Source: Tetrahymena thermophila SB210
Taxonomy: Eukaryota; Ciliophora; Oligohymenophorea; Hymenostomatida; Tetrahymenidae
DNA: 64,000 bases
Assembly: GCF_000189635.1 (NCBI RefSeq)
Contig: NW_002476420.1
Location: 2,683-66,682 of the forward strand
Direction: 5' to 3'
Each line of letters begins with the position of its first letter. Position 1 is the first letter of the stretch. The notes under the pieces are model-generated. The model was not told the origin of the DNA and searched no databases. It saw only the letters and a list, made by a program, of their open reading frames with translations. Made by a program: the position numbers and the translations under genes. Below are positions 8,991 through 48,832 of this stretch, piece by piece.

Positions 8991-10919
8991 TTTCTTTTAG
9001 TATTTTGTTTAATTTTGTTTATTTATTTATTAAGATATTAAATAAAGGTAAAGATTGTTTGTATTTAAATCAAATATTTGATAAATTAGAATATTTAGAT
9101 TTTAATGATTTAAAATTCAATTTATCGAATTTAATAAGATGATTTTTGAACGTTTTTATGATCCGAATTAATTGGTAAATATATAAAATCATAATTCAGG
9201 CTTTCTTATTGATAAATTTCTTAATTTTTCATACAAAAAGAGAATAGAGAGAATTTTAAAACTGAGCACTATAAATGGATGATAATATATTAAATTGTTG
9301 AAATAGTAAATACTTTTTAGGATATTTAAATAAAATTATTTTTATTACTACAAAAAAGAATATTTGAAAATTATCTTAGGGTATAATATATAGGGATGTA
9401 CTGATTCCGATATATATCGTTATCTGTAAAAAAAATTCATCGATATTTATAGTAAATTACAAAAGCTATAAAAAATAAAAAAAAGAGTATCATACTTATT
9501 TATAGGATATTATTATATTTAGGTAAAATATTTAAAATGGCAGAGAGTTTAGCAAAAGTTTTATTTACTTAATAAGAATGCATTTTTATTGACCTATAAA
9601 TAAAATATAATTAAAAACTTAAATTTAAGGCAGTTGCTATTCAAAAGAAGAGGTTTATTAAATAATTCTAATAATTATTTAGAATATTTAACACATACTA
9701 TAATTCAATCTACTTTAATAAAAAACTATTTATTATTTTGACATAGAAATAGATAAAAAGATTGAATAAAATTAGTGATTAAATACATATTGTCTTAAGT
9801 AAGTTAGTATGGATTAGAATAATCATATTATATTTTTTTTGCCATTTTTATGATAACAAAATATCATACTAACATTAAATGGAATTATTTAAAGGAGAAT
9901 GTATAAATAAATCTATTTTAGAATCTATAAATAGATATCAAATTATAAATTTTATCTATATATTTTATAAAAGAAATACTAATAATAATAAGTAAATTAG
10001 AATATTTAAAATAATTAGAATATTTAAGACATTTAGAATATTTAAAACAAATAGAATATTTGAGGTAATATTTTATTTAAGGCAATTAAAATATTTATGG
10101 TATTTATTATTTTTAAGTTAATTAGAATATTGATGGCAATTATTATATTCATGGTAATTACAATATTTAAAGAAATTAGAATATGTCAATTGTATTGAAA
10201 AAATGATCTTATAATAATAAAAGAATGATAAGTATGTAAGTCATAAAAAATAAGTGATATTTATTTTGCTTTTTTGGGTTTTTTAATATTTCGATAAAAT
10301 ATTTGTTTATTATCATAAAAAGTTTTAAAAAATAAAATAAATTAAAATAGTATCAATCCTCATTCATGAATAAAACTACCCATTCGCTACTTTTTTCCAA
10401 AAACTTTTACTTAATTAAGAATGTAATTTTATAAAATAAAAATCTATTATTTATTAAAAATGTAATATCTTAAATTACATATTAATATAAAAAAATTATA
10501 AAACTAATATTTAAAAATTAAAATTAAAATAAAATTATTAAATTAATTAACCTACTTTAGAGCAAATCTAGGAATTAAATTCTTTATTCTCCACTTCCAT
10601 AAGAATTTAATACCTGGAAGTGCAAAATAACAAGTGAATTAATGAGTGTGTTATTTTAAAATATCATTTTTTTAAATTGCACCAATTCAAAAACATAGGA
10701 TTTTTAAATTTAAAAATACTGGTAATCACATAAAAACATGTAAATTCTATTAAATTGGTTACTAATCTAGTGGATTCGCAATCTTCTTATTCTTTAAATC
10801 ACAGATTTCTCAATACACAATTAATTATTTTATCATATTAAACAAATAGAATAAAAAACATGAATTGGTAAAACACAACAGATAATTAACTAAAAATTAT
10901 TATTTATTTTATTACAAAA
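8991..10919. repeat. Spacer between copies 1 and 2 with conserved upstream block and 18-bp repeats
   Basis: No gene is seen. About 9,400-9,660 matches 30,370-30,560 (shared ggcagagagtttagcaaaag), so the upstream sequence of copies 1 and 3 is conserved beyond the coding region. About 9,976-10,180 carries tandem units close to AATTAGAATATTTAAAAT at 18-bp spacing. About 10,230-10,410 is the block shared by all four spacers. The shared block lies between the 5' end of one copy and the 3' end of the next, as expected for tandem duplication of gene plus spacer. Confidence 0.65.
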
Positions 10920-13900
10920 TCAGGAATATTTGGCTTTGTATGCTGAAATTAATTCGTTGCTACAACCATCTTGCTTTCCAATGTCTTTTAAAATTTATTC
11001 AACAAACAGGGTTGTTAATTATTTGGAGCTTTATCCAGAATTTATATCAAGATATTAACTTATTCCATTTGTTAATTTTGCAATATTTTCAAATGTACTT
11101 TTTGCTCCTTATTTCAGGTAAAATGTATTGACAGGAATATTTTTATTTTTAAGTTTTTAACACTCTGGAACATAATAAGTTAATCCTTTTAGTGGAGTAG
11201 TATCCCAATAACTCTATCCAAATTAATTTCTAAACTTTTAAGCTTCATTCATTAGATGAGCAGGTTAATCCCCTAAAATTATTACTTGACTTATTGGGTC
11301 TTCATCATTTTATTTGTTAGCCCACCATAATCCTACTTCCACAGATTCTCCTGGCCATGTACCACCAGAGGCTGTTATTTTTTATAAGAAAGACCTTAAC
11401 TTATCTGGATTATTTTCCCAAGTTGAAGTTTAGAATATCTCTTCCCATTTGCTATTATAACTTCTAAAACAGCTTATCATGATTTAAAAGCATTATGGAT
11501 CATATCCTTTTTCTGTTAAGATATCTCTAGTTTATTCAAAAGTTGTTTATATTGTATTTTTGGTTTAAGTGATGAGATTACTCATCGATCCTGTAACATC
11601 CATAGCAATTAGAGTTTTAAAAGTATTTTCTTTCGGGCCTTAATTCAATTACAATAAGTATTTTTTAACTTCTTATTAATTACAATCTTTTAAAAAATTT
11701 AAGAAGTCCTCTGATTATTTATGGCTAGTAATTGAGGTCTTTTGATTATATTCTATATTACTTTTAAAGTCATTTTCGAAATTAACCTGACGATTTCTAT
11801 CAAGAACTTCATATATTTCATCAAGATTCTCAATTTTCTTTTAATCTTCTTCTGTTTTAAGGAAAGCCTATAGAGTGTCTTGTTGAAGAACCATGCTGAA
11901 AGAACCCTCTTCACCTTATCTTGCTGTCCTTCCTTTTATCTAGGTCTCTTCAGACTTATCTTCAGAAAAGAAAGTTTGAATAACATGAACTCCATAATTT
12001 TAAAATATAATAGTATCATTAACTTAGAAATCTATACCTCTACCAAAAATTTTGGTCAGTAAAGTGATTGCACCAGAGTATGTTGCATCTTTTATAATTT
12101 TCTTTCTTTCTTCAATTTAGTTTTCTTCTGTCATAATTTAAATCTAGGAATTTTATTTTAAGGATTTGAACTATTAACTATTGTAATAATCATGTAAGGT
12201 TTTCTTGGTATCAAAAAAAACTAGTACTGCTCTTTTTTAATCAGTTTTTCCAACTATATTTTTGTTTATTTCATTTGTAATAGTGTTATAATATTCTGAT
12301 TATGAAACTACTTTCACATCTTTTTGGGGGTTAAATTAAAACTTACTCTTTCCATATATTGATGGTATAAAAGTGTATTATTTCATATTATATGTGTTTT
12401 ATATTAATTAGAGTTGGCTTTAACTTAAAGTTTCTAAAGTTCCTGTGACACCATTAATTATGAAAAACTTTTTAGGTAGCTCTGAATAACAAAAGCTTCC
12501 ACTGTTAATTTTAAATACTTTTTATTTTTAAAGACCTACATTTGAAATTTTTGAATTCTAATTTTCTTGATAGTAGGTATACAAAGTTCTATATCCATAT
12601 GATATGTTATCAAGATATTAATCTTAATTTTTATAATAAATTTTGTCATTTTAGATTTTATAATTTTCAAAACTAACTTTATTGATATTTTTAAAATCAG
12701 AAACAGCAATTTTTGTTTATTCTTTAATCAGCTCAATCCAATTAGGAAATTGAGCTATACAGTTTTTATACTCTTGAGACTTACAAATATATTTAAAACT
12801 AAAGTTAGGATCATGTTTGGCATTCCATATTTTATCAAGCAAGCTTTCAATTGTTTGGTCTTAGATTGGTGCCACTATATCATAATTATTTCCAAAAAAG
12901 TCTTTACTAAAAAAGACATCTACTTCATCTATTAAGAGAACTTATTTCTTGATATTTGAATTATTTGAATATTTAATATTCTCTGTTTAAATATAACTTG
13001 AAACTTGCTCTCTAATGTCTCCTCTTTGGTTTAGTATTTCTTCACAGACCTTGTTGAATGTTCCATACTAAATCAAATCTTTAATCTTTAACTTTTCAAA
13101 CAGAAGTAAAAATTCTTAGTAATCTCTAACACTAAGTTAATTACTGTAGCAAGCGCACTTCACAGAAAATCCGCATAGAGAGTAAAAACATGCCAGAGCT
13201 GCCAAAACAACAGATTTTCCCTCACCAGTCAAGACTTAAGCTAAACTGTTACACTATATTTCATCATAATTTTTGGAGTAGCCAATTCCTAAAAGTCTAA
13301 AAATTGCAACTATTTAAGAAGGATGAGGTTTTAATAAAAAGCTTTACTTGTTTTCATATGACTAATCTATTGATTCAAAATAATATTTTGAATTTATACA
13401 AGTCCAACAACAGAAAATACCTGCTAAAAGATCAGCAACTATAATCTAAGATGTTTATTCTATTTTTCCTGTTTTATTAAACGCATCTTTGTTGATTTTA
13501 TTTACAGAATTTTATATTTCTTTCAAGAGGTCAATAAAATTAATTTTCTCAAAAGAAGTTAAATATTTATCTAAATATTGATTGTATTCATTAATAAATC
13601 TTTGGTAGAAATTATTTAGTTAAGTCTTATTTATGTCATCTTTTTTATCGATATCAGAATAACCTCTTACTTATTCTAAGACTTGATCAATGCCAAACCT
13701 CTATATTCTTAGATTTGTATCACTAATCTAAAATCCTTTGAAAAAAGGGTGATTTTATGTTACTTAATCACCATATTTAGATTTTCTTAATTGAATTTAT
13801 AACTTTTCTAGAGATCCTTTAAAATCTTTGTAATTTTTTAATGCTTAGTTAATCTTTTCATTACATTCTGTTTTGATTTTTTCCATGTAGATGTAAGTTG

Positions 13901-16900
13901 AAGATATTTTATGCATATTAGATATGTACTCTGTAAATTATTCTATTTTATCAATTTACTTTGGTTCTGTAAACTACTTTTAAATTTACTATAAAAATTC
14001 TGATTGCACAAACCTCTAATTCATACTATTTTCTACAAAGCCCATAGATGAAAAATATTAATCGATATATTTAGAATTCAAATAAATATTGTTAATACTT
14101 TTAACAACACTATCATCAAAAATATCACCTTAAAAACATTATTTGAGATCATAATTTATTGATTTAATGATTTAATTTAATTTTTATAGTAAATCTTCAA
14201 ATAGCGTTATTTTTTAAGAGATTATATTGAATTACTACACTAAAATTTACATTTATTTAGCATTTTAGAAGACTTTTTAAAAATAATGGTAGTAATCTTC
14301 ATACTCTTTCTAAATTGTAAATTTATTAACATCCTTTTACAAAATTTATTCCACCTAATTGTTCAGTTTTTATTGCTTAGATTTTAAATTTTCTATTAAT
14401 TCATGATATGATTCACAATCAAAATATTAAAGTTAGTAAGCAATTTTAAATTAATCGTAGATACATGAAAAGTCTTCTTCAGTATGTTAAATTTACCTTA
14501 CAATAGGTTTGAGATTTGTGATAACTAATTATTATTATATTTAAATTTAATCAAACACATAGAAATATTCAAGTTCTTTTAAAATTTTCAGCTCTTATTC
14601 TTACAATTTGTGATAAACCTTTAACAAACAATTACCTAAACAGCAATAATCAGAAAAAAATTCTAAATTTGTTTAGTGATTACTAACTTTTTAACTCAAT
14701 ACATTTTGAATTTTGTTTCCAGCTTCTTTAATTTTATCACAAAATAATTGCTCAAAAACATTATTTAATTTTTCTTTTACTTAATCTAAATATTTTTAGG
14801 TTTAGGCGGTGTTAACAGCTATCCTAATTAAATTTTGAAAGCTTTTCTCAAAGTTAATATATTTTTTATCATTTAAAATAATTTCATTATAATTCAATTA
14901 AATTTCATTTTCTATGAAATTATCAAGCCTATTTTTAAATTCAGTATAAAGGCTTGAATCTTTTAGTGTCTCTAATAGCTTAATAATTTCAATAATATTT
15001 TTTTGTTTATAGAAATTATTCATTTATTCTTTAATTTTGTCAGTCTTATTGATGTTTTCTATTAATTAGCTCAGAGAGTTTTTCATTTAATTAGGAATTT
15101 AACCAAAAAAACTTTGAACTTCTTTGATAGTTTTCTCAAATTAGCTTAGAGACTTTTCATTTGCTTATTTCAACTTATCTTCCAGTTTTTTCTAGAAAAT
15201 GTCTTAAAGCTATTTAGATAAGTTTAAATAAATTTCGTTATCTTATACCTTCTCTAACTTGCCACATATTAGATTCAAATCAAATATTTCTGTTTTTGAG
15301 TTATCTAAATTTAAATTCTCAACTTTTTATTAAAGTTCTTTGAAGCAGTATTCTTTAATTTATCCTGATTCTAATTGGTTGAATTGTTCTTTTATTTCAA
15401 ATTTTTACATAAGGATCTTAAAAACTTCTTGCATAAATTAATATTAAACATTAAATTCTTTGAAATAATAGTTTTTGAACATTTATTATATTTTTTTGAG
15501 TCCTTCATTAGCAACTTAGTAAATAATTTTATTAATTTATTCAATTTCAGACTTAAATTTATCTACATCCAAATAGTCCTTAAAATAATAATCATAATCA
15601 TTGAACTGCTTATATGAATTAATAATTTAGTCTGCATAATCTATTTATTCTTTAATTTAGCTGTCAATAGATAAAAAAGTCACATGTTAACTTAACTTGT
15701 CGACTTATTACTTAATTTATATTATTATTTTTTACATTTAATTTTCTAACTAAAACTTAAAATCTTCCAAAACCATTTGATTTTCTTTATTTTCTTTATT
15801 TTACATAGCCTACCCTTAAAGCTTTTTATAGGTAGCAAGCATTTATGGAAGATAATTGTTACTTAACTATTTATCGAATCCAGATTTCAGTTATTCAACG
15901 TTAAATTTATTCTTTTTATAGGTTTTAGAGAGTAAATCAGAAAAACAAAATGAATTTTATGAGTTACTTTGTAATTCATCTAATATTTTCAGTTTCTGTA
16001 AAATGAAAATCCACTTATATTCTACATATTCATTCATATCTACAATCTCCTATAATTAAATCTATATTCTCTTAATACCGGATAATTATTATGAAATAGA
16101 AAAGTTGCTTTTATCTTAATCCAGAATATCTTTTAATTCACTAAACTTTTCAATCTTTGACATTTCTTCAAACTTGTCATAGATATTTTTTGAGCAATTT
16201 TCAATTAACTGTCTCTCTTCACTTGATAAAGAAGTATTTTGAAAGATATTCTATAGCTGCTCAAAAGACTATTTAAGAGATTTCTCTTTTTCTAAGCAGC
16301 TATTTATTAGATTTTTTTTCACATCTTCGAGCATTTATTGAGCTTCCTTTTTATAAATCTAATTTGAAATGCATTTATTTAAGAATTAATAACTCTTTTA
16401 GCGTTCCCAAAAAGTAGTATTTTATTGTTCTGAAAAATTTTTTATTTTATTAAATTAATACTAGAACTTCTCCATAACAATACCATCATATTAGTTTATT
16501 GATTGTTTTAACACTTCATCATAATGTGAAAAATTATTTAGTTTCTTCATTTTTTATTTTGAGCTTGCTATTTTCTTGAGATCTTCTGTTTATTCTAAAC
16601 CGATTTCTAATTAATCAAGCTAATCAATAATTATATTAGCAAAGTTTTTCATAGAGTTAAGTATCTTTTATTTTTAAGAATCATACTCCTAGTCTTAATC
16701 TATTTCTTAAATCCATTAACATTCTTAAATTAAATAAAAAGCCTCTTCTAAATTTTAGAATTGCATTCCTAATTCATCTTCACTGTTATTTGTAATTTAC
16801 AACTCTTTTACAACTTATTTGATTTTTTTTGACATTTTCGCAATTCTTGAATTTATGAGACTTACTAAACTCTTAAATTTTTAGTCAAGCTTAGGATAAA

Positions 16901-19082
16901 GTTTAGATAATAGTTAAAGTTAAATAAATCTTGACTTCAGTACCTACAATTCACTTGATTCATCATTTATCACAGCTTTGACTTTTTCCTCAATATCCTA
17001 GTACTCTTTTTCTATTTGTTCTCTGTATTCCTTTTAAAAATTATTTATCTTTTCTTTGCAATGTTCATCTTTTAAATTAGATTTTTTGAATTCTTAATGA
17101 ATTGAGTGAATTTTTTCTTTAGCATTTTGTATATCTCTATCATTTTCCTCATTTTTCTTCACTGTTTATTGCTTTATTTTTTCAAAAATTGTCAGCTTTG
17201 AGTTTTCCATTTCTAAAATAACTTTATCAAAAGCCTTCACAATTTAATCTTTAACATTATGAGCAGGTAAAAATGTGCAACTCTCAATATAGTTGATAAT
17301 TTGCTGCATCTCATTAAAAAAATCAGCAAAGTTGTCCTGTTATAAAAAGCTTTCTGCCTTTTTCACTTGGTTTGATATGTTTTCCATCATATAACTAATA
17401 AATACAGTTATGGAATTTTCTTCCTTAACGATATCTGATAAAAATAGCAATTTCTAGTAATATTCATTTACATTATTTTATTAGCATGAAATCAAGTCTT
17501 ACTTCACATTTTAAAGTATTGCTAAAATAGCTTCTCTCAAGGCTCCATTAAACTTTTACACCAAATTCTCAGTTTAAGGTAATAGTTTATATAAAATATT
17601 TAACTTAGACAGTTCTTATTTTGTATTTAAAAAATTAGTAATTTATTCTTCGTCAATCTTCTTAAATTCAATAATTTTCTAAACAAATTAATCTACACTT
17701 TAAATTTCGCTATTTATTTAGTCATCAATTTAAGTTAAGTTTTGTTCCCATTAATTACTAAATGATGACAAATCTTGTATACTATTTTTTAGCAAATTTA
17801 ACTAAGTAAGCTTTTTAAAAATCAGCAAAAAGTTTCTTTTTTTCCATGCTGTTTATATTCTACTTTGGTCTTATTTTAACTGTTATGAAATGGAAGTTTC
17901 TGCTTCAGATGTAAAAAAACAAGTAAAAGCATCCTTTGGCATTTCAATAGCTTATCTACCTATAATATGCTTTTCTATGAACTTATATCCCTCAATACTC
18001 AGATCGAAGAAAGCTATGTTTTTTTCATCTTAAGTTTATTATAACATAGCTTTAAGGACAGAAATAAATTCTTAATCTTTTTTTTCGCCTGCGTTCAAAT
18101 TTTCGTAAATATTTTAGAGTTTTTTGTGAAGCTACTCCTGACTCTTCTTATCTGAAAACTTAGAAAAGACAAATATGAATTTCCGAATCAGTTATTGAAA
18201 GTTTTATGAAGGCTTCACCATTTTTTTAATTACATTTGCAAGACTTTTAATTCCTGAGCCTCTGTCAGAGATTTATTGTTCACTAATAAGAATAATAGGC
18301 TTTATGCTCTTGCAAACTGATATACATTCATAAATTCCGGTTAGATTAGCTATCTCTGCCTCATTTCCTTGAGTATCTAGAAAACCAGGAGTATCGCATA
18401 AGTTAATCTCTTCATCTTCACCATACTCATTTCCTTCTTAGTCTGAAGTATTGATCCTGACAAGAGTAGCAAACTTTGTTTCTGATTTGGCATCTGGTTT
18501 AGAAATAACGCGATCTAAAGCTTTGTATTTAAAATTAGTGGGTTCCCAGTGGTGTAGTCCATCTTTATTGATTATTTATTAAATTTTTGATCCTGCTAAG
18601 TAGTGAATGAAAGTACTCTTTCCAGTCCCCGTGAATCCTAGTACCATAACAACATCCTAATTATTCATCTCTTTACTAGAAATTTAGGATTCATTTATCT
18701 CATCTGATATTTTTTGGAAATCCAAATTATTAATCTCTTTAAACAATCTACTGATTTCTATTTCTGCCTTTTCAAAGTTTTGATTTTTATACTCTTGTAG
18801 GCTTGTTTCAAATAATGGTTATATTTATCTTATTGCAGCTTCACTCTCAAACTTTATCTATTCATTTATGACATTAAATAGAGTCATCACAGCCATATTT
18901 GAATACTTCAAATTTTAGAATTTTAGTAATTCTGATATGTTTTCATCTAAGCAAAATTTTGTAAGTCTGCCTTCATAATCAATAATTATTTTTTCCTCTT
19001 ACTTTTAAACATATTACTATATTGCTTAAGTTGAGTCTTAGGATAAAGATTCTTCTGAGTCATATTCAAAATCAAACTACAT
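10920..19082 (-). CDS. GTPase-SecA-like helicase-VWA protein, copy 2 (intact, 2720 aa)
   Basis: A single intronless frame of 2720 residues; I checked every TCA on the plus strand and found no in-frame TGA before the stop at 10920. The start ATG at 19080-19082 gives MQFDFEYDSEE and matches the start of its sisters. Domains in order: P-loop GTPase with GFTGTGKST (about residue 145) and DTPG; a long, Q/K/E-rich helical middle (about 370-1850) that is the least conserved part between copies; a SecA-like two-lobe motor with TGEGKS (1952), DEVD (2052), GVTGT (2211), GRGID (2347) and GRTARQG (2384); and a VWA domain with MIDAS DVTGSMS (2495). The order and spelling of the helicase motifs match bacterial SecA (TGEGKT, DEVD, GMTGTA, GRGTDI, GRxGRQG) better than ordinary DEAD-box proteins. 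No signal peptide or membrane segment is evident, so it is probably cytosolic (inference). Confidence 0.9.
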
Positions 19083-20400
19083 TTTTTTTAGTTATTAATT
19101 TAATTTTTTTTTAATTTATTATTTATTAAAATTTAGAATTAAGGTATTAGATAGTTAGTATTTAAATGAAAAATATTATAAATAAGAGTATTTAAAAATT
19201 GCTTTTTAAATTTGAATTTCTTTACACGGGGGATAATATAATGACTTTTAAATATTGTTAAGATCTGAATTAATAGATAGTTATTTTTAAACATATTATT
19301 GATTAAAAAATCATATTATTATTGCCCTGGCTATAATAATACCATATTAGAATTAAATCAATTCCTTTAAAAGAGAGTAAAAATATTAATATAAATCATT
19401 AAATAATATATATTTTGAAATCTAAAATAATAATATTAAAAACTTAAATTTAAATATTTATTCATAGACAGAGTTCATTAAATAAGATCAGCTAATCATA
19501 TTTTAGAATATTTAACAAAAATTAAAATTCAATCTATTTTAATTAAAAAAGGATTATTTTGACTTTGAAATAATATGAAGAAAATTAATTAAGTATAATA
19601 CAGATTGCTTTAAGGTAGCAAGCATCTAAATAATCATGCTAATTTTGCCCTAGTTACGATAACACCACATCATATTAAAAATTATTTTAAAGAAGAATAA
19701 ATCTATTTTAGAATCTATAAAGTATAAATTTTATGAATATATTTTATAAATAATTAGAATATTATTGGAAATTAGAATATTATAGCCAATTAGAATATTT
19801 AATTTAATTAGAATATTGAATTAAATTAGAATATTTAATGAAATTAGAATATTTAAGGCAAAAAGAATATTTAAATTAAATATTATACTTAAATTGATAG
19901 AGGCAAATGATTTTATAATAATTTATAAAGAGTAAAAAAAGGCTATTAAATTAAGTTTATTTATTTTACTTATTTTGAGTTTTTGAAATAAAGATAAAAT
20001 ATTTATTTAACATCATAAAAAGCTTTTAAAAAATAAAATAAATTAAAATATCATAAATCCTCATTAATTAAGATACCTCTTTTGCTACCTTTCCACAAAA
20101 AATTTACTTTGTTCGTATCTGACCTTTAATAAACAAATATTTTTAGATTAGAAAACATACATGAGTTAGTTAATCTAAGAGAATTAAATTTTTATCTTAA
20201 AATAAAGATAACTGGTTGAACTATTATTTTTTTATAACCATTATCACAGACTCAAACCAGGATAGCATAAAATTTGTTACTTACCTAACAATACTATTCA
20301 TATTAAAATTTTAATTAAATAATGCAAACTCATTTTAAAATAATAAACTGATTTTTAAAAAAGGTTCTTTATCAACAAAAAAAAAATAAAACACCTAAAC
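19083..20400. repeat. Spacer 5' of copy 2 with 18-bp AT-rich repeats
   Basis: No gene is seen. Around 19,748-19,895 there are about seven tandem units near AATTAGAATATTTAAGGC, the cleanest 18-bp array in the window. About 19,930-20,110 is the block shared with the other spacers (aaataaaataaattaaaat followed by a tcctcattaattaa-like stretch). The upstream block common to copies 1 and 3 is present only in degraded form (about 19,260-19,720). Confidence 0.6.
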
Positions 20401-21546
20401 TTAACTCAGAAATTATCTTAATTTACCCTACTATCTCTCTACCTCCTTATTGACAGTCTACCTTATATATAACTCATTGAGCCTTTTACCTACCAATTTG
20501 CCAGATTGCTCACTTTTTTCTTAAATTCAACTCTAGCTAAGTGAAAGATTTGGTAAAATAATGATTATTTTGTTCAGCTTCTATAATTTCAACTTTCTTT
20601 TAGTACCAGCTTAGCTGAATTTTTCTTCAAGATTGTAGCCAACATCAATCTCTATGATACAAATGATTAAAGATATTTTATACACTCTATTCTTTAAGCA
20701 CTCGCTGTAGTTCTTCCATATGATCAAGAAATATTTATATCTCCTCTTAATCATATGAAAGATTTCATTTACTAAAAGTTATTTACTGGATTATCGTCGT
20801 TTTAAGCACTCAAAAACTAATATTTTTCATTTTCTCTAAAATATGAAAACTTTTTTGAATAAAATATTTATATTTTTAAATGGAAAAATTTTTTTAAAAT
20901 TTTTCTCATTAGCTTTTGATTAAAATAATTGTTCATCATAAAAAAAATCGTAATTACTTAATGATTAATTGATCTATCTTTAAAAAGTAAAAAACAAATT
21001 ATTATTTCTAAATTTATTGTAAAAAATAAATATAAATATTTTGCTTTAATTAATATGCCATACAAAAATTTCTTGGCTTGCATTCCACTGATTATGAAAT
21101 AGATTTTATATTTATTTATTAAAAAATATAATTTTTAAATTTTATAAAAGAATTTTTATTAATAATTTAATTTATAATTTCAAAAATAAATAATTTTTTT
21201 ATATCAAAATTTTTTAATTTAGCTAAATTTTCTGAAGTAAGTGGGTTAGACAAAATACAGGATTGGGGAGTAATTTCTGCCTGTAGTGATTAAGAATTTC
21301 TAAATATTTCTTAAGAAAAAAAAGAATGAATTAATCATTCTAATTTCAAATTAAAATTTTTTGAAATGGCTTAATTTTAGTTTGGAAAATTAATTTTTAA
21401 ATATTTGAACTTATTTTTAATGAGTTATTTATGAGTTTATCAATTTAAAGAAAAATAATAAAAAACATGAATTAGTAATAAAATATTATATATTTATATT
21501 CAATATAATTATTATTAACTAAAAATAATATTATCTTATTATAAAA
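20401..21546. other. Extra sequence in the copy 2/3 spacer, possible gene relic
   Basis: This stretch is longer than the matching part of the other spacers and includes a less AT-rich patch (about 20,430-20,780). On the minus strand, 20754-20527 forms a 75-codon frame from ATG to TGA in the ciliate code, rich in I, L, K and Y. I do not recognise a family. It may be chance, a gene fragment or the remains of an insertion. The remaining part (20,780-21,546) is plain AT-rich DNA. Confidence 0.3.
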
Positions 21547-24500
21547 TCAAGAATACTTGGCCTTGTATGCTGCTATTAATTCTTTGCTACGACCATCTTT
21601 CTTTCCAATGTCTTTTAAAATTTATTCAACAAATAGGGTTGTTAATTATTTGGAGCTTTATGCAGAATTTATATCAAGATATTAACTTATTCCATTTGTT
21701 AATTTTGCAATATTTTCAAATGTACTTTTTGCTTGTGAATGGAGGTAAAATGCATTGACATGAATTTTTTTACTATTAAGTTTTTAACACTCTGGAACAT
21801 AATAAGTTAATCCTTTTAGTGGAGTAGTATCCCAATAACTCTATCCAAACTAATTTCTATGAGCTTAAGCTTCATTCTATAGATGTGCTGGCTAATCCCC
21901 TAAAATGATTACTTGACTTATTGGGTTTTCATCATTTTATTTGTTAGCCCACCATAACCCTACTTCTACAGATTCTCCTGGACCTGTACCTCCAGAGGCT
22001 GTTATTGTTTATAAGAAAGACCTTAACTTATCTGGATTGTTTTCCCAAGTTGAAGTTTAGAATATCTCTTACCATCTGCTATTATAACTTCTAAAACAGC
22101 TTATCATGATTAAAAAACATTATGGATCATATCCTTTTTCTTTTAAGATATCTCTAGTTTATTCAAAAGTTGTCTATATTGTATTTTTTGTTTAAGTAAT
22201 GAGACTACTCATTGATCCAGTAACATCCATAGCAATCAGAGTTTTATAATAAATTTATTCTTTTGGGCCTTAATTCAATTACAATAAGTAATTTTTAACT
22301 TCATTTAAATTACGATCTTTTAAAAAATTTAAGAAGTCCTCTGATTTTTTATGGCTAGTAATTGAGGTATTTTGATTATATTCTATATTACTTTTAAAGT
22401 CATTTTCGAAATTAACCTGACGATTTCTATCAAGGACTTCATATATTTCATCAAGATTCTCAATTTTCTTTTAATCTTCTTTTGTTTTAAGGAAAGCCTA
22501 TAGAGTTTCTTATTGAAGAACCATGCTGAAAGAACCCTCTTCACCTTATCTTGCTGTCCTTCCTTTTGTCTAGGTCTCTTCAGACTTGTCCTCAGAAAAG
22601 AAAGTTTGAATTACATGAACTCCATAATTTTAAAATATAATAGTATCATTAACTTAGAAATCTATACCTCTACCAAAAATTTTGGTCAGTAAAGTAATTG
22701 CACCAGAGTATGTTGCATCTTTTATAATTTTCTTTCTTTCTTCAATTGAGTTTTCTTCTGTCATAATTTAAATCAAGGAATTTTATTTTAAGGATTTGAA
22801 CTATTAACTATTGTAATAATCAAGTAAGATGTCTTTGGTATCAAAGAAAACAAGTACTGCTCTTTTTTAATCAGTTTTTCCAACTATATTTCTGTTTATT
22901 TCATTTGTAATAGTGTTATAATATTCTGATTAAGAAACTACTTTCACATCTTTTTAGGGGTTAAATTAAAACTTACTCTTCCCATATACTGATGGTATAA
23001 AAGTATATTATTTCATATTATAGGTGTTTTTTATTAATTCGAGTTGGCTTAAGCTTAAAGTTTCTAAAGTTCCAGTGACACCATTAATTATGAAAAATTT
23101 TTTAGGTAGCTCTGAATAACTAAAGCTTCCGCTGTTAATTTTGAAGAGCTTTTATTTTTAAAGACCTACATTTGAAATTTTTGAGTTCTAATTTTCCTGA
23201 TAGTAGGTATACAAAGTTCTATATCCATATGAAATGTTATCAAGATATTAATCTTAATTTTTATAATAAATTTTATCATTTTAAATTTTATAATTTTCAA
23301 TAATTACATTATTGAAATTTTTAAAATCAGAAACAACAATTTTTGTTTATTCTTTGATCAATTCAGCCCATTTAGGAAATTGAGATATGCAGTTTTTATA
23401 CTCTTGAGACTCAGAAATAGATTTAAAACTAAAATTTGTATCAAATTTGGCACTCCATATTTTATCAAGCAATATTTCAACTGTTGAACCTTTGATTGGT
23501 GCCACTATGTCATAATTATTTCCAAAAAAGTCTTTACTAAAAAAGACATCTACTTCATCTATTAAGAGAACTTATTTCTTGATATTTGAATTATTTGAAT
23601 ATTTAATATTATCTGTTAAAATATAACTTGAAACTTGCTCTCTAATATCTCCTCTTTGGTTTAGTATTTCTTCGCAGACTTTGTTGAATGTTCCATACAA
23701 AATTAAATCTTTAATCTTTAATTTTTCAAACAAAAGTGAGAATTCTTCATAATCTCTGACACTAAGTTAATTACTGTAGCAAGCGCACTTCACAGAAAAT
23801 CCGCAAAGAGAATAAAAGCATGCTAGAGCCGCCAAAACAACAGATTTTCCCTCACCAGTCAAGACTTACGCTAAACTGTTACACTATATTTCGTCATAAT
23901 TTTTGGAGTAGCCTATACCTAAGAGCCTAAAAATTGCAACTATTTAAGAAGGATGAGGTTTTAATAAAAAGCTTTACTTGTTTTCATATTACTATTCTAT
24001 TGATTCAAAATAATATTTTGAATTTATACAAGTCCAACAACAGAAAATACCTGCTAAAAGATCAGCAACTATAATCTAAGATGTTTATTCTATTTTTCCT
24101 TTTTTGTTAAACACATATGTGTTGATTTTATTTACAGAATTTTATATATCTTTCAAGAGATCAATAAAATTAATTTTCTCAAAAGAAGTTAAATATTTAT
24201 CTAAATATTGGTTGTATTAATTAAAAAATCTTTCATATTAATTATTGAGTTAAGTTTTGTCTAAGTCATCTTTTTTATCGATATCAGAATAGCCCCTTAC
24301 TTATTCTAAGACTTGATCAATACCAAACCTCTGTATTCTTAGATTTGTATCACTAATCTAAAATCCTTTGAAAAAAGGGTGATTTTTTGTTACTTAATCA
24401 CCATATTTAGATTTTTTTAATTGAATTTATAACTTTTCTAGAGATCCTTTAGAATCTTTGTAATTTTTTAATACCTAGTTAATGTTTTCATTACATTCTG

Positions 24501-27500
24501 TTTTGATTTTTTCCATGTAGATGTAAGTTGAAGATATTTTATACATATTAGATATATACTCTGTAACTTATTCTATTTTATCAATTTATTTTGGCTCTTA
24601 AAACTACCTCTAAATTAAGATTAAAAATTCTGATTGCACAAATCTCTAATCAATACGCTTTTTTACAAAGTCCGTAGATGAAAAATATTAATCGATAAAT
24701 TTTGAATTCAAATAAATATTGTTAATACTTTTAACAACACTCTCATCAAAAATGTCACCTTAAAAACATTAATTAAGATCTTAATTTATTGATTCAACAG
24801 TTTAATTTAATTTTGATAGCAAGTCCTGAAATACATTTTTATGTTGAGCTCCTAAATTAAATTGCTACACTATATTTTGCATTTCTTAAGCATTTTACAA
24901 GCCTTTTTAAAAAGACTGGTAGTAATCTTCATACTCTTTCTAAATTGTAAATGTATTAACATTCTTTGACATAATTTATTCCATCTATTTCTACAATTTT
25001 TATTGTTTAAAACCTAAATTTTCTATTAATTCATGGTACGATTCAAAATCAAAATGTTAAAGTTAGTAAATAATATTAAATTAATCCTTGAAATAAGTAA
25101 AATCTTCCTCGGTATTTTTAATTTACTTTACTTTTTCTTTTAGATTGATGGTAACTTTTGATTTTTATTCTTAAATTTAATCAAACACATAGAAATAATC
25201 AAGTCCTTTTAAAAACTCCAACTCTAAATCTTATATTTTGCCTTAAACTTTTAGCAAAGAATTACTTAGCTAGCAATAATGAATAAAAAATTCAATAGAT
25301 TTTTCAGGGTTACTAATTTTTTTATTCAAAATATTTTGTATTTATTTTTCAGCTTCTTTAAATTAAACACAAAATAATTGCTCAAAAACATTATTTAATT
25401 TTTCTTTTACTTAATATTAATATTAGCCTGTGCTTTAAATACCAATCTTAATTAAATTCAAAATACATTTCTCAAAGTTATTGTATTCTTTACAATTAGA
25501 TATAATTTGTTTATAGGTCTATTCAATTTCTTTTTCCATAAAATCTTCAAACTGGTTTTTAAATTGTTTATAATAACTTGAATCAACTAGTGTTTCTTAT
25601 AGCTTCCTAAGTCCTGTAATATTTTTTTGTTTAAAGCAACTATCAATTTCTTCTTATATTTTATCAATATTTTTAATGTTTTCTATTAATTAGTTCAAAG
25701 ATTTAATCATTTCCTTAGGAATGTAATCAAAAAAAAATTAAACTCTTCTGATAGCTCCCTCTTGCTAGTTTATTGGTCTATCTCTTACTTGTTCCAGTTT
25801 ATCTTCCAGTTTTCTCTAGAAAATGTATTAAAGCTATTTAGAAAAGTTTTAATAAAAATCGTCATCTTCTACCTTCTCTAACCTGCCACATATGTGATTC
25901 AAATCAAATCTTTCTGTTTTTGGATTATCTAAATTTAAATTCTCTACTGTTTATTAAAGTTCTTCGAAGCAGTTTTCTTAAATTTATCTTAATTTATCGA
26001 ATTCTTCATCTATTTAAAATTATTGTTAAAGGATTTTAAAAATTTCTAACATAAATTTATATTAATCATTAGATTCTTTGAAATTATTGTTTTTGAACGT
26101 TTATTTTATTTTTTTGGGTCCTTCATGAGCAATATATTAAATGCTGCTTTTAATTTATTCAATGTAAGACTTAAATTTATGTTCATCCAAATAATCCCTA
26201 AAATGATAAATATAATCATTGAAACGCTTATATAGGTTAATAATTTAATTTGCATTTTCCATTTATTCTTTGAGTTGACTGTTAATAGGTGAATAAGTGA
26301 TTATTTATTTGAGCTTGTCAGCATATTACTAAATTTATGTTATGATTTTTTTCATTTCGTTTTCAAGCTAAAACTTTAAATCATTCAAAATCATTTGATG
26401 TTCTTTATTTTCATGATTTTACATAGTCTATTCATAAAGCTATTTATAAGTAGCTAGCATTTTTGGAAGATGATTGTCATTAAACTATTTCTCTAATCCA
26501 TCTTTAAGACTTTGAACATTAAGTTTATTCTTAGTATAGGTTTCAGAGAGTAAACTAGCAAAAGAAAATTAATTTTAAGGAGTACATTCTAATTCATCTA
26601 ATATTTTCAGTTGCTGCAAAATGAAAATCCACTTTTATTAAACGTGCTCATTCTCATCTACAATCTCCTTTATTTATCTCCATAGTCTCTTAAGAAAATT
26701 GAATTATTATGTAATTAAAAAGTTACTTCTATTTTACTCCAGTTTATATTTTAATTCACTGAAATTTTCAATCTTTGACATTTCTTCAAACTTATTATAG
26801 ATGTTTTTTGAACAATCTTCAATTTACTTTCTCTCTTCGTTTGTTAAAGAAGTATTTTGAAATATTATCTTTATCTATCCAAAAGACTATTAAAGAGACT
26901 TCTCTTTTTCTAAGCAGTGGTTTATTAAATTTTGATTCAAATCATCTAGCATTTTTTGAGTTTCCTATCTATAAATTATATTTGAAATGCATTTCTATAA
27001 GAATTAGTAACACTTTTAGTACTCCCAATAAGGAATATCTTATGACTATGAAAGTGTCTTTATTTTAACAAAGTATGGCTCAAACTTCTTCCTAACCTCA
27101 ACTTCATACTCATTTACTATTATTCTTAATTCTTCATCTAAATTTGAAAAACTTTTTAGCTTCTTCATTTTTTCATTGGAGCTTGTTATTTTGTTGAACT
27201 CTTCTGTTTAATCTAAAGTGATTTCTATAGAATCTAAATTTTCCATAATTTTATTGGCAAACTTCCTCAAAGAGTTAAATATCTTTTACTTTTAAGAATC
27301 ATACTCTTATTCTTAATCTAGCTCTTAGATCCATTAACATCCTTAAATTAATGAAAGAGTTTCTTCTAGATTTTAGAATAGCATTTCTAATTAATTTGCA
27401 TCACTATTTGTTTGCAAGTCCCTTATCGTTTAACTGACTTTTATTGATATTTTAGCAATTCTTGAATTTATGAAACTTATTAAACTTGTAAATTGTTACT

Positions 27501-29685
27501 CAAGTTTACATTAAAGCTTAGATAATATCTAAAGTTAAACAAATCTTTATTTTAATCCTTACAGATCACTTGATTCCTCGTTTATCACAGCTTTGACTTT
27601 TTCCTCAAGGGTTTAGTATTCTCTTTCTATTTGTTCTCTGTATTAATTTTAAAAATTATTTATCTTTTCTTTACAACATTCATCGTTTAATTTAGATTTT
27701 TTGAATTCGTAGAGAATAAATTGAATTTTTTCTTTAGCTCTTTGTATATCTGTTTAATTTTATTCAGTCATCTTTGCTGTTAATTCTTTTATTTTTTCAA
27801 AAATTGTCAGCTATTAGTTTTCCATAACTGAAATAACTGAATCAAAATTCTTAACAATTTAACTTTTAACATCATGAACAGGTAAAAATGTGCAGCTCTC
27901 TATATAGTTGATAATTTGCTGCATCTCATCGAAAAAATCAACAAATTTGTCTTGTTCTAAAAAGCTTTCTGACTTTTTCAATTGTTTTGAAATGTTTTCC
28001 TTCACTTAAGCAATAAATAAATGAATGGATTATTCATCTTTAACCACTTTTGCTAAAAATGACAACTTCTAGTAATATTCATTTACATTATTTTAATAGT
28101 ATGAAACAAATTCCAACTTCAAATTTTCTAGTAGTGCTGCAATAGCTCTTGACAAGGCTCCATCTAATTTTTTCACCAAATTTTCAGCTTAAGGTAAAAG
28201 ATCATATAAAATATCTATTTTAGAAAGTTCTAATTTAGTATTTAAAAAATTAGTAATTTATTGTTCATCGATTTTCTTGAGATTAATAATTTACTAAACA
28301 AATTAGTCAACACTTTAAATTTCACTATTTATGTATTCATCAAGTAAAGTAATGTTTTGCTCCCATTAATTAGCTATAGATGATAAATCTGGTATATTTT
28401 TTTTTAACAAATTTAATTAAGTAAGCTTTTTAAAAATCAGTACAAAATTTCTTTTTTATAAAGCTGTTTGTATTCTACTTTGATCTTATTTTAACTGCTG
28501 AGAAATGGAAGTTTCTGCTTCAGATGTAAAAAAACAAGTAAAAGCATCCTTTGGCATTTGAATAGCTTATTTATTTTTAATATGACTCTATATGAACTGA
28601 TATCCCTTGATACTCAAATCAAAGAAAACTATGTTTTTTTCATCTTAAGTTTATTATAACATAGCTTTAAGGACAGAAATAAATTCTTAATCTTTTTTTT
28701 AATCTGCGTTTAAATTTTGTAAAATATTTTAGAGTTTTTTGTGAAGTTGCTCCTTTTCCTTCTCATTTTAGAATTTAGAGAAGACAAATATGAATTTTCG
28801 AATTAGTTATTGAAAATTTTATTTAGGATTCACCATTTTTTTAATTACGTTTGCAAGACTTTTTATTCCTAAGCCTCTATCACAGATTTATTTTTCACTG
28901 ATTATTACAACAGGTTTTATGCTCTTACAAACTGAAATGCATTTATAAATTCCAGTTAGATTTGAAATTTCTGCTTCTAATCCTTCTGAATCAAAAAAAC
29001 CAGGAGTATCGCAAATGTTAATTTCATCATCATCACCATACTCATTTCCTTCTTAGTCTGAAGGCTTGATTTTAACAAGAGTGACAAACTTTGTTTCTGA
29101 TTTTGCATCAGGTTTAGAAATAACACGATCTAAAGCTTTGTATAAAGGATTAGCGGGTTCCCAGTGATATAATCCATTTTAACTGATTACTTATTAAATT
29201 TTTGATCCTGCTAAGTAGTGAATGAAAGTACTCTTTCCAGTACCTGTGAATCCAAGAACCATAACAACGTCCTAATTATTCATCTCTTTGCTAGAAATAT
29301 AGGATTCACTTACCTCATCTGATATTTTTTGGAAATTCAAAGGATTGATTGCTTCAAACAATCTGCTAATTTATATTTCTGCCTTTTCAAAGTTTTTATT
29401 TTTATACTCTTGTAGGCTATCTTCAAATAATGGTTTTATTTATCTAATAGTAGCTTCACTTTCTAACATTATCTATTCATTTATGCAATTAAAAAGAGGC
29501 ATACATTCTACATTTGAATGCTTTCGATTTAAATATTTTAGCAATTGTAAAATGAAATCATCTAAGCAAAAGTTATTAAATTTTTCTTCATGATCAAATA
29601 TCATTTGTTAATCTACTTATTATTCTGGAATTTAGTTATAAGATTAGATATCTTCTTCATCATTGCTTGAAAAGTCTAACTCCAT
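21547..29685 (-). CDS. GTPase-SecA-like helicase-VWA protein, copy 3 (intact, 2712 aa)
   Basis: A single intronless frame of 2712 residues with no in-frame TGA on a full check; stop TGA at 21547-21549, start ATG at 29683-29685 (same MELD start as copy 1). It keeps all motifs: GTPase Walker A GFTGTGKST, DTPGF, the SecA-like TGEGKS, DEVD, GVTGT, GRGID and GRTARQG, and the VWA MIDAS DVTGSMS. Its middle third is much closer to copy 1 than to copy 2, while in the VWA region copies 1 and 2 are identical over more than 200 bases and copy 3 differs. The role is unknown. From the domains, a nucleotide-driven protein-remodelling or substrate-threading machine with a VWA docking surface is a reasonable guess, but that is inference. 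Confidence 0.9.
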
Positions 29686-31620
29686 TTTCTTTTAGTTATT
29701 TGTTTAATTTTATTTAATTAATTTATTTATTTATTAAAATATTAAATAAAGGTAAAAGATAGTTTGTATTTAAATAATAATCTGATGAATTAGAATATTT
29801 TAGATTTAATGATTTAAATTTCAATTTTTTTTGGGGTTTAATAAGATGATTGATTTTTGAACATATTTAAGATCCGAATTAATTGATAAATATATAAAAC
29901 CACAATTAACACTTTGCTAGAGATAAATCCCTCAATTTATCATACAAACAGAGAATAGAGACCATTTTAAAATTGAGCACTATGAATCGAATTATTTTAA
30001 ATTTTTGAAATAGTATTTATTTTTTAGAATATTTAAATAAAAATTACTTTTACTACTCTCAAAAATAATGTTTATAAATTATTTAAGGGTATAAATAATA
30101 TAAAAATTATAAAAAAAGATAAAAATTTTAAACACCATAGTTATTTCTTAGGAAGGTATCGATTAAAAAAATTATATTATTTTTTCCCTAGCAATTATAA
30201 AATCATTTAAAAGAGAATATATGTATTTAAAAATTATTAATAAATAGTAAATAATAAATATTTAGAATTATTTTTAGATAAATATTTTATGAATTACAGT
30301 CAATCCTAAACATAGTTAGAAAAAAAAACTTTGAAAAACACTAAAGCTATAATAAATTACAAAGGCTTTAAAAAGATAAAAAAAGAGAGTATGAGGCTTA
30401 TTTATAGGGTATTTATTATTATACTTAGGTAAAATATTTAAAAAGGCAGAGAGTTTAGCAAAAGATTTATTTAATAAATTAACTTACATGCGTTTTTATT
30501 GACCTGTGAATAAAATAATATTAAAATCTTAAATTTAAGGTAGTTGTTATTCAAAAGAAGAGATCTATTAAATAAATAATGCCAATCATAATTTATAATA
30601 TTTGACAAGTATTATAGTTCAATCTACTTTAAGATAACTAGATAGAATAAAGTTAAGTGATTATAATACATATTATGTAAAGTTAGTATGGATCAGATTA
30701 ATCATATTATGTTTGCCATTTTTATAATAACTTTGCATCATGCTAAGGTTAAATAAAATACTTTAAAGCAGGATAAATATATTTTAGAATCTATAAATAA
30801 ATTGCAAAGTATACATACATACATCTTATGAATATGTTTTATAAAAGAAATAATAATTAAATTAGAATATTTAACGAATTAGAATATTAATTGTAATTAG
30901 AATATCAAACGTAATTAGAATATTAAACAAAATTAGAATATTAAACACAATTAGAATATTTAACGCTATTAGAATATTTAACGCAATTAAAATATTTAAG
31001 GTAATTATAATATTTTAAGTTAATTATAATTTAATGCAATGATTATATTCAACGTAATAAGAATATTTTAGGCAATTAGGATAAGTAAATTGTATAGAAA
31101 AAATTATCTATTATTAATTTATAAGAAATCAGTATGTAAACAATAAAAAATAAGTGGTATTTAATTTGCTTTTGAGTAGTTTAATATTTAGATATAATAT
31201 TTAATATCATACAAAGTTTTAAAAAAATAAACTAAATTAAAATAATATCAATCCACATTAATTAATGTACCCATTCGCTACTTTTCTCCAAAAATCTTTA
31301 CTTTTTATGAAAAAAAAAATAATTTTAAATTTTGAAAAGTTTTTACAAATTTTAATTTATTACAGTTAAAAAACGACTTATGTAAAATTTTTTATTACTA
31401 AAAAATTATCTAAAGTATTTTTAAAAATTATTTAAATGAAAAACAAGAACAAAAATGGAATTAAAACAAATAACCAAATATTATTTCTATAATTAAACTT
31501 AAATATTAAATAAGAGTTTGTTAATTAATTAAATTTTTCATTTTTTTATCAATAAAAAAAAACTGAGCAAATTAATTTTTCTTTTTTTGAGTTTATCTTG
31601 TCATGGTACATACTTTATAA
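29686..31620. repeat. Spacer 5' of copy 3 with conserved upstream block and 18-bp repeats
   Basis: No gene is seen. About 30,370-30,560 matches the block upstream of copy 1. About 30,855-31,090 is an array of units such as AATTAGAATATTAAACAC and AATTAGAATATTTAACGC. About 31,140-31,300 matches the block that lies 3' of the SecA-VWA copies. Here, however, the next gene is the unrelated kinase-like gene at 31621, so this marks the right boundary of the tandem array. Confidence 0.6.
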
Positions 31621-47200: not shown

Positions 47201-48832
47201 AATACAACTTAACTCATTAATAGAGAGATTTTAATTGATTTACTTTTTTAGACAAAAGGTGTTAATTTAATCTAATTATTCGAGGGGAAAAAGTAAAATT
47301 TATGATGTATTTGCCCTTTATCAAAAGAAATTCAATCAAGGTTACTAATCATAAAGGAATTAAAAAAAACAATCTGATAAATTATAACTAAAGCATAAAT
47401 TATTTTTGATTGTTAAAAGTCAAAAAACGTAAATCATTTAAAATTTTATTTTAAAATAAATTTAAATGTGTAAGTAAATATTTGCTTGAATAAAACCGTT
47501 TTCTTTTACAAAAGTAACATTTTTTGCATAAGAAAAATAACATAAATAAATTAATTACTGGTTTTTAATTAATTTCATGAGATTTTCTTTAGTTAGAAAA
47601 TAACATTTCCTAATAGGAAATAACTCAAATAATGTAAAAATCTCTTGTTGGGTGGAAGGAATATATATATACTTTTATGTAAATAAATCGAAATCTAATT
47701 TTGAAAATTCCTAAAGAACTTTTCGTTCGTTTTGAGAAGAGATAAAATGCCTATTTAAATAATTTGATAATGAAAATATTAAGATATACTCAGTATAACT
47801 ATATAAAAACTAGAAGATTACAGTTAATATTATTTAACAGAATCAATAAAAAATTTTATTTTATGATCTCCCCCAACTTTTAAGCATTTCAATAATTAGA
47901 AATGAACATTATACTTTTAAAAAATAGTTAGTTCATTTCTTAATTGTAAAGTACTTTTGCCATAGCAGTTAAAATAATATCTAATAATTTATCCCGTAAT
48001 AGGAAGTATAATGCCAACATCTAACCCAAAGTGGTATTTTTTTAATACTGTTTTATCAAAAAAATAATAGAAAAAAGTTACTTAGTTTATAAAGTCTTTT
48101 TAGAAAATTTCAGGCTTAAACTTTAAAATAATATTATGTTAAGACTAACTAAGTTAAGTTTATGATCAAATATTATTTTTCAAAAAATAAACATTTAAGT
48201 ACTAACTTATAAATAAATAAAATTATGTAAGAATAAAAATGATAGGTATGCAATCGTATTTTTTAATTCTATTCATATTGAAGAATACTTGAATTAAGGA
48301 TGATTTATTATTTTTTAAATGCGTATGTTTGAGAAATGAAAAAATCAAATTATTTACATTCTACAATTAGATTATTTTTGCGTGAAATTTAATTACAATC
48401 AAATCAATTAATCTATAAATAAATAAATCATGTTTTGTTTTCTAACAGAAGTATAATTTCCCACTTAGATTGTTTTATGATAATTTAATTAAAAAAATTA
48501 AGCAAAAACAATCAATGTACAATTAATTAGTTAATTTTCTATCTTATTGAATTCAATTCATTCCAGAAACTTTCTAATTTTTTTTGACAAATTTACTCAT
48601 TCTTAACATTATTTTGAGTAATTTATTTTGGATTGATTTTTACATTTATTTCTTTAACACCAACTTTAACTAAAATTGTTTGCTCAAAAACAACTTGGCA
48701 AATAAATTCATTTATAATTAATTTTTAAAATAAAAAAAATATCAAATAAATAAATCAATCGATCGATCTTAATTAATAAAAAATATTTTATCATAATCCT
48801 ATCTTTGATTGAAATTCTTATAAATAAATCAA
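44237..48832. other. 4.6-kb AT-rich spacer, nothing recognised
   Basis: I see no coding frame longer than chance in the ciliate code, no RNA gene and no defined repeat array, only simple runs of TTTA/ATTA type and a GACTGACTGACTGACT run at about 44,284-44,300. A small or intron-rich gene could be missed by eye. Confidence 0.4.

Follow-up and report, generated by a model that had tools for sequence, protein, structure and literature searches.

Tandem genes of Tetrahymena thermophila fuse a P-loop domain, a SecA-type motor and a VWA-like domain

A stretch of 64,000 nucleotides of the Tetrahymena thermophila SB210 genome (contig NW_002476420.1, positions 2,683 to 66,682; hereafter the window) carries a tandem family of very large genes, each of which joins a P-loop domain, a motor resembling that of the translocation ATPase SecA and a C-terminal VWA-like domain. 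This is a real, constrained and unusual fusion, in which the type of motor was already known from eukaryotes, whilst the three-domain combination did not turn up in the open-licence papers searched. By its sequence the motor is almost certainly of SecA ancestry. All frames were read under genetic code 6 (translation table 6) and all positions are those of the whole window. The genes, referred to here as copies A, B and C, are as follows.

10920..19082, minus strand: copy A, complete frame of 2,720 amino acids (aa) with 235 reassigned stops, code 6
21547..29685, minus strand: copy B, complete frame of 2,712 aa with 213 reassigned stops, code 6
6471..8990, minus strand: copy C, 5' part; homologous over 818 N-terminal residues and out of frame thereafter
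856..6474, minus strand: copy C, 3' part, the rest of the arm, motor and VWA-like domain

The original prediction described one uninterrupted frame of 2,712-2,720 residues in the interval 10920-29685. Table 6 gave two long minus-strand frames there, both complete, each of which (copies A and B) is indeed uninterrupted. Outside that interval, copy C (856-8990) is a tandem third copy that one break in frame at ~6.5 kb divides into two frames. Under table 11 (the bacterial code) the window held no open reading frame of at least 200 aa, and a TGA-free run of 2,712 codons has a chance of ~3e-24, assuming independent bases of the interval's composition. Copies A and B were 75% identical over their full length, copy B was 81% and 86% identical to the two parts of copy C, and starts and stops corresponded across the alignments.

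The order of domains was the same in all three copies: a P-loop/DTPG domain, an arm of ~1,470 aa poor in proline and glycine, a motor with its motifs in SecA order and the VWA-like domain. Every motif named in the original prediction was recovered in the order given (GFTGTGKST, DTPG, TGEGKS, DEVD, GVTGT, GRGID, GRTARQG, DVTGSM) from both copies A and B, and the fusion of the domains within a single frame was thus seen in two intact tandem copies.

Selection was estimated from pairwise ratios of nonsynonymous to synonymous substitution (dN/dS, omega; Nei-Gojobori, code 6). As omega between copies was below one in every measured region, the frames are not a product of chance. The motor was the most strongly constrained region (omega 0.19 for A vs B, 0.15 for B vs C). 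Elsewhere, A vs B gave 0.44 for the N-terminal 125 residues, 0.26 for the P-loop domain, 0.53, 0.69 and 0.56 for three blocks of the arm and 0.41 for the linker plus VWA-like domain (whole frame, 0.47), and B vs C gave 0.49 for the N-terminus, 0.44 for the P-loop domain, 0.30-0.54 for the arm and 0.31 for the linker plus VWA-like domain. Synonymous divergence (dS) between A and B was 0.59 at the N-terminus but 0.16-0.18 over the motor and VWA-like domain, a fall not seen between B and C; gene conversion at the 3' end could have caused it. This three- to four-fold drop covers window positions 10920-13500 and 21547-24100.

The frame break of copy C lies at window positions 6471-6537 and is either recent or an assembly error, because the motor downstream of it is still constrained. 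Such a break would be expected of a degenerating, non-functional repeat family whose domains are relics. However, two frames of 2.7 kaa are intact, the motor motifs are kept in all three copies and omega in the motor is as low as 0.15 even between B and C, making a family of relics highly improbable.

The motors and the motifs of copy B map as follows.

22366..23973, minus strand: copy B SecA-type motor, ~residues 1905-2440
11736..13343, minus strand: copy A SecA-type motor
1675..3279, minus strand: copy C SecA-type motor
23842..23859, minus strand: copy B Walker A TGEGKS
23548..23559, minus strand: copy B Walker B DEVD
23068..23082, minus strand: copy B GVTGT motif; DEVD-TGT spacing of 161 residues, SecA length
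22660..22674, minus strand: copy B GRGID (SecA motif V)
22543..22563, minus strand: copy B GRTARQG (SecA motif VI, symbiont-type variant)

The ATPase motifs TGEGKS, DEVD, TGT, GRG.D and GR..RQG are kept, the motor motifs being present in 3/3 copies. In a phmmer search of copy B against PDB sequences, all nine matches (E up to 0.01) were SecA or SecA2. A profile of the three copies gave 19 PDB matches (E up to 1), 18 of them SecA or SecA2; the remaining match was RadA (E 0.74), to the VWA part. A hidden Markov model (HMM) of the three motors was then scored against 16 sequences, three of which were its own rows. The top-scoring relatives were SecA-like proteins of giant size from Rickettsiales, symbionts of ciliates among them. 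This Rickettsiales set comprises two proteins of a Candidatus (Ca.) Megaera polyxenophila plasmid (5,225 and 1,589 aa; 56.0 and 43.6 bits), one of a Ca. Bandiella woodruffii plasmid (2,966 aa; 48.3 bits) and one of a Rickettsia endosymbiont of Culicoides (1,241 aa; 55.5 bits). Lower scores were returned by a Methylosinus SecA-like protein (35.0 bits), SecA2 (33.8), Jeotgalibacillus SecA (31.6), a protein from a metagenome-assembled genome (MAG; 29.9), E. coli SecA (24.0) and a Pontibrevibacter SecA-like protein (22.0). All ten other SecA-type proteins therefore fell between 22 and 56 bits, compared with -2.5 bits for the helicase control RhlE, -3.4 for UvrB and no reported score for HrpB. Two IMG/VR proteins reached 55.2 and 52.6 bits.

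Alignment of profiles with hhalign gave the motor a probability of 99.6% (E 1.5e-24) against a symbiont profile of six rows and 96.1% (E 3.1e-9) against a SecA/SecA2 profile of three, in contrast to 0.75, 0.41 and 0.28% against RhlE, UvrB and HrpB. This contrast is somewhat flattering, because each helicase control consisted of a single sequence (effective number of sequences, Neff, 1), whereas SecA and the symbionts were represented by shallow alignments (Neff 1.8 and 2.6), but the HMM scoring, in which each protein was taken singly, agrees with it. On C-terminal fragments of 837-838 aa, SecA_DEAD (Pfam cut-off 24.6 bits) scored 25.0 in copy B, 21.6 in A and 23.3 in C, and P-loop_SecA (cut-off 27 bits) scored 26.9, 28.7 and 28.1, respectively. 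Each fragment thus cleared exactly one of the two SecA models of Pfam, SecA_DEAD in B and P-loop_SecA in A and C. On the whole frames P0001, P0002 and P0003, P-loop_SecA was under its cut-off and Helicase_C over its own. In NCBIfam the sole match of copies A and B was a SecA2 model, far under cut-off.

The insert between DEVD and TGT measures 161 residues in the ciliate motor, 163, 164 and 182 in SecA/SecA2, 166 and 168 in secondary-type SecA, 190 in the MAG protein and 211-225 in the four Rickettsiales proteins; the two IMG/VR rows have no insert value, because their TGT motif was unmatched. Of the SecA-specific inserts by which the original prediction was to be judged, the DEVD-TGT insert was therefore of SecA length (161 residues, the three SecA/SecA2 controls spanning 163-182), whereas no preprotein cross-linking profile was detected. 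The predicted SecA-type motor itself held up on the PDB, HMM, hhalign and Pfam-fragment evidence, which did not support membership of an ordinary DEAD/DEAH family. An ordinary DEAD/DEAH helicase was ruled out by the HMM, hhalign and PDB searches with their controls.

A SecA-type core that has returned to work on RNA or DNA is a separate matter. SecA and the DEAD helicases have the superfamily 2 (SF2) core in common, and Helicase_C was the top Pfam score in P0001, P0002, P0003 and the three fragments, as a nucleic-acid helicase would predict. On the other side, the non-SecA helicases scored below 0 bits or were not reported with the three-copy HMM and stayed below 1% in hhalign, the Pfam DEAD model was unlisted (E up to 1) for P0001-P0003 yet listed in 2/2 SecA controls, and the insert of SecA length has been kept. 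We regard a nucleic-acid helicase as very unlikely.

Parts of SecA beyond the motor core went undetected. Pfam searches of P0001, P0002 and P0003 (E up to 1, although HMMER filters drop most matches above E 0.1) listed neither SecA_SW (PF07516, the wing/scaffold) nor SecA_PP_bind (PF01043), and the latter was likewise unlisted for the three fragments. Both families were present in 2/2 SecA controls (E. coli and Jeotgalibacillus; E. coli SecA_PP_bind, E 9e-41). In addition, motif VI is followed by a linker of only ~95 residues before the VWA-like part begins. Given the lack of both matches and this short linker, the ciliate genes encode a SecA-type motor and not a SecA protein. Its motifs also differ, with QVLTGEGKS and GRTARQG in place of the EMRTGEGKT and GRSGRQG of two SecA rows.

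The original prediction had called for a tree of the motor, and one was run with bacterial and IMG/VR sequences. This unrooted tree of 15 motor rows (the published eukaryotic secA-domain clade, plastid and cyanobacterial SecA and the partial IMG/VR locus L016 are not among them) joined the three copies, which share a very long branch (4.65 changes per site). They lay between a Rickettsiales/IMG-VR group (6 rows, support 92/90) and a group of SecA, SecA2, secondary-type and MAG rows (89/90), within which the five SecA, SecA2 and secondary-type rows stood together (100/100). In approximately unbiased (AU) tests, a clade of the copies with E. coli SecA, Jeotgalibacillus SecA and SecA2 (Lactococcus) was rejected (P = 2.2e-4), as were clades with SecA2 alone (P = 1.25e-5) and with the Rickettsia row alone (P = 0.0048). 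However, grouping with all five SecA and secondary-type rows was not rejected (P = 0.087). With no root, and with copies of odd amino-acid make-up, the tree is a poor guide to whether the symbiont group is related to them; the scores of the profiles and the variants of the motifs do point to such kinship.

These results also bear on whether the gene arrived by organelle transfer as an import SecA of plastid or mitochondrial type. It would have SecA ancestry in common with the ciliate motor, and the grouping is not rejected once the two secondary-type rows join. Against it stand the lack of a SecA_SW match, the divergent motifs, and the rejection of a clade with SecA plus SecA2, or with SecA2 alone, in a tree that had no plastid SecA row. 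A hydropathy scan (19-residue mean) of copies A and B placed no hydrophobic N-terminus among the top windows. That scan is in keeping with the remark in the original prediction that no transit or signal peptide is visible, which is nonetheless less secure than stated. A plastid-type SecA is not favoured, and we consider an organelle import protein extremely improbable. The top windows of the scan reached 1.86 after Walker A and 1.78 just before the motor, the latter corresponding to about residues 1869-1889 of copy B. A predicted structure of the motor plus VWA-like domain (5-row alignment A4) was too poor (mean predicted local distance difference test, pLDDT, 32.9) to count as evidence either way.

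The domains flanking the motor are located as follows.

28486..29340, minus strand: copy B P-loop nucleoside triphosphatase (NTPase) domain, ~residues 116-400; G1 GFTGTGKST and G3 DTPG, without NKxD
17871..18725, minus strand: copy A P-loop NTPase domain
24076..28485, minus strand: copy B arm, residues 401-1870, Pro+Gly 2.6%; no Pfam family over cut-off
21550..22260, minus strand: copy B VWA-like domain, residues 2476-2712; DVTGSM, GGT.PGES, GDQPAH
10923..11633, minus strand: copy A VWA-like domain
859..1569, minus strand: copy C VWA-like domain

Whilst G1 (GFTG[TV]GKS) and G3 (DTPG) occurred in 3/3 copies, no G4 motif of the form [NT]KxD was found in residues 1-480 of any of the three. The MMR_HSR1 family (cut-off 21.9 bits) scored 24.6 in A, 25.9 in C and 21.3 in B on fragments of 420 aa, placing two of three over the cut-off, but 16.5, 19.1 and 14.9 on whole frames, where none was; Septin was weaker than MMR_HSR1 in fragments A and B. 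The GTPase assignment of the original prediction is supported in part. Over residues 401-1870, the arm contained 1.9% Pro+Gly in A and 2.6% in B, and 33% and 32% Glu+Lys+Gln, respectively; with this composition it is probably a helical rod. DVTGSM, GGT.PGES and GDQPAH were found in 3/3 copies and were assigned by eye to a metal ion-dependent adhesion site (MIDAS). The VWA domain of the original prediction accordingly keeps its MIDAS-type motifs, but not a family score over cut-off. Neither the VWA region nor a profile of the N-terminus matched any PDB sequence below E 0.05.

We also searched for relatives in other sources. None was found among phages. With a ciliate query, the plasmid search returned a single record, which stems from a culture of Euplotes woodruffi: a 'SecA-like domain protein' of 5,225 aa encoded by Ca. 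Megaera polyxenophila (SecA_DEAD 4e-39, with a weak RickCE-like stretch). A search with that protein next listed Ca. Bandiella, which has the same source, and Legionella geestiana. IMG/VR yielded no loci with ciliate-first queries and three with a Megaera-first query (L016 being partial), and GTDB genomes yielded two loci out of 75 pattern matches.

Several of these loci deserve description. On the Ca. Megaera plasmid (L002, 11609-32077), two SecA-like genes (1,589 and 5,225 aa) are adjacent, and the larger has HEAT-like repeats and the RickCE-like stretch, both under cut-off. In L. geestiana, a 13.8-kb plasmid (L006, 1590-10433) has one gene of 8.8 kb, and its product, a 'hypothetical protein', matched the Megaera motor at 30.6% (E 5e-78). 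An IMG/VR contig (L015, 3171-13841) encodes a 3,556-aa protein whose SecA-type motor groups with the Rickettsiales rows and which has a weak RickCE-like stretch. The MAG protein (L004, 8522-12196; 1,224 aa) combines a SecA-type motor on a long branch with a match to the preprotein cross-linking profile over cut-off.

Like the ciliate copies, the four Rickettsiales proteins that were scanned carry a SecA_DEAD/P-loop_SecA motor inside a larger protein, without a SecA_SW match, and both groups have the motifs [QE][VI].TGEGKS and GRT[AS]R[QK]G in common. They differ in the longer insert of the Rickettsiales proteins (211-225 vs 161), in a motor identity of ~23-28% and in SecA_PP_bind, which matched under cut-off in 3/4 Rickettsiales proteins and in no ciliate copy. 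SecA and SecA2 in turn resemble the ciliate motor in core, motif order and insert length, whereas the ciliate motor has no SecA_SW, SEC-C or SecA_PP_bind match and was rejected from a clade with the three SecA/SecA2 rows. When HMMs were built for the P-loop and VWA regions of the ciliate copies, neither matched the supplied bacterial proteins, so the three-domain fusion is unseen in those proteins. The P-loop-SecA-VWA fusion was likewise not found in the literature searched, which consisted of open-licence PMC papers. Sequence databases may well contain unannotated members of the family.

The papers cited below are those of Duplouy et al. (PMC3639933), Zhang et al. (PMC3482391), Kamneva et al. 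(PMC4452313) and Kaur et al. (PMC8195603). The ciliate genes are probably members of a known family of SecA-like proteins of eukaryotes and symbionts. Long secA-domain genes of Wolbachia wBol1 were described in 2013 with relatives in insects, Daphnia, Polysphondylium, Tetrahymena and Salpingoeca, and transfer from eukaryote to bacterium was inferred for them (PMC3639933). Bacterial-type SecA motors have thus been in print for eukaryotes, Tetrahymena included, since that year, and the capture inferred in the original prediction is better read as probable membership of this family. The words GTPase, von Willebrand and ciliate do not occur in the main text of that paper.

Secondary SecA_DEAD proteins, described in 2015, adjoin type I secretion genes and, like the ciliate motor, are without all or most of SecA_SW (PMC4452313). 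Unlike the ciliate proteins, they are bacterial and small; two examples beside efflux adaptor genes, taken here as secondary-type, have EM.TGEGKT and GRC.RQG motifs. Midasin/Rea1 and the MoxR-VWA machines (for the latter, PMC8195603) are alike in outline, pairing a P-loop motor with a VWA domain, but their motor is AAA+ and not SF2/SecA, making them an analogy only.

The relatives' surroundings suggest a host-symbiont conflict factor, in which a ciliate sensor or effector would recognise intracellular bacteria, or would have been taken from their effectors, with the motor as a triggerable ATPase and the P-loop domain as a signalling switch. The best-scoring motors indeed sit in large proteins of intracellular bacteria, including Ca. 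Megaera and Ca. Bandiella from the culture of a ciliate (Euplotes). Amoebophilus effectors reportedly include GIMAP GTPase and SecA-like domains (PMC3482391, 2012), a Treponema protein combines NACHT, TPR and SecA_DEAD domains (PMC4452313), and MoxR-vWA pairs and GTPase switches form the cores of conflict systems (PMC8195603, 2021). The tandem arrangement of the genes and the faster divergence of their middle part (omega 0.53-0.69, A vs B) would also suit such a role. However, omega is below one throughout, and the middle is less fast between B and C (0.30-0.54). Moreover, tandem gene families are ordinary in ciliates, and no PADLOC family, from a library of anti-phage defence, matched copy B. 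A conflict factor is unlikely, if by no means negligible. The argument for a role towards intracellular bacteria comes from the associations of the motor's relatives, and such a role is compatible with the remodelling mechanism set out below.

The copies are separated by similar spacers.

8991..10919, no strand: spacer between copies C and A, apparently non-coding, 18-bp tandem repeat
19083..21546, no strand: spacer between copies A and B, apparently non-coding, 18-bp tandem repeat
29686..31303, no strand: spacer upstream of copy B, resembling the others

The spacers were 66-81% identical to one another over matching pieces, and their 18-bp repeat is satellite-like. Bases 1-855 also match them, so the array probably extends to the left of the window. 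No consistent coding frame was found in the spacers. Their being the coding sequence of another gene was ruled out, the similarity between spacers being scattered over frames and strands. There was no Rfam match within the window. Elsewhere, a second pair of large frames (31783-34632 and 37207-40464; 949 and 1,085 aa) was 71% identical over 733 residues and had no Pfam match with an E-value of 0.001 or below, and a frame for an EamA-type transporter lies on the plus strand at 48809-50293.

The sequences themselves establish the domain order, the SecA ancestry and intact ATPase motifs of the motor, the absence of the SecA_SW profile and the concentration of constraint on the motor. Beyond these, we tentatively propose a cytosolic, ATP-driven protein-threading machine with a P-loop switch and VWA docking, which is the likeliest of the mechanisms weighed here although as a whole it falls somewhat short of probable. 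In this architecture a P-loop switch (possibly a TRAFAC GTPase) would be followed by the long arm poor in proline and glycine, the SecA-type ATP motor and the VWA-like domain. The motor would pull or thread polypeptides in ATP-driven steps, as SecA does. Because it would do so without SecYEG, and hence without a membrane channel, its action would be that of an unfoldase or remodeller. The P-loop domain may govern recruitment or assembly via the arm. Midasin uses the metal site of its VWA domain to hold a client or adaptor, and by analogy with midasin and the MoxR-VWA machines the ciliate domain may do the same.

Several observations weigh against this proposal. The lack of a SecA_PP_bind match weakens the case for a peptide clamp, as the lack of NKxD does for GTP specificity. 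VWA_4 stayed under its cut-off of 27 bits in 3/3 copies (19.8, 18.5 and 20.1 bits). SecA_DEAD was under cut-off in two of the three fragments and, on whole frames (E up to 1), was listed for copy B only, again under cut-off, whilst Helicase_C outscored P-loop_SecA in P0001, P0002, P0003 and all three fragments. Finally, as two stretches exceed 1.6 in the hydropathy scan of copies A and B, a level above which membrane segments can occur, contact with a membrane is possible.

A broader scenario, which we consider quite unlikely, is that the family forms a eukaryote-specific, nucleotide-gated threading machine of the cytosol, in which the P-loop switch recruits, via the arm, a motor that lost the channel interface and gained a VWA gripper. 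It would have been derived from large motors exchanged with intracellular bacteria and would serve ciliates against those bacteria or in handling them. SecA is known as the export motor of bacteria and plastids, working with a membrane channel. Eukaryotes without plastids keep long secA-domain genes, as was reported in 2013, with no function assigned to them in the available part of that report (PMC3639933). With a motor that is under strong constraint, has no detectable wing/scaffold and is joined to a switch and a docking domain, it becomes testable in a culturable ciliate whether a SecA motor can act on proteins when no channel is present. A second question that becomes testable is whether such a motor is linked to intracellular bacteria.

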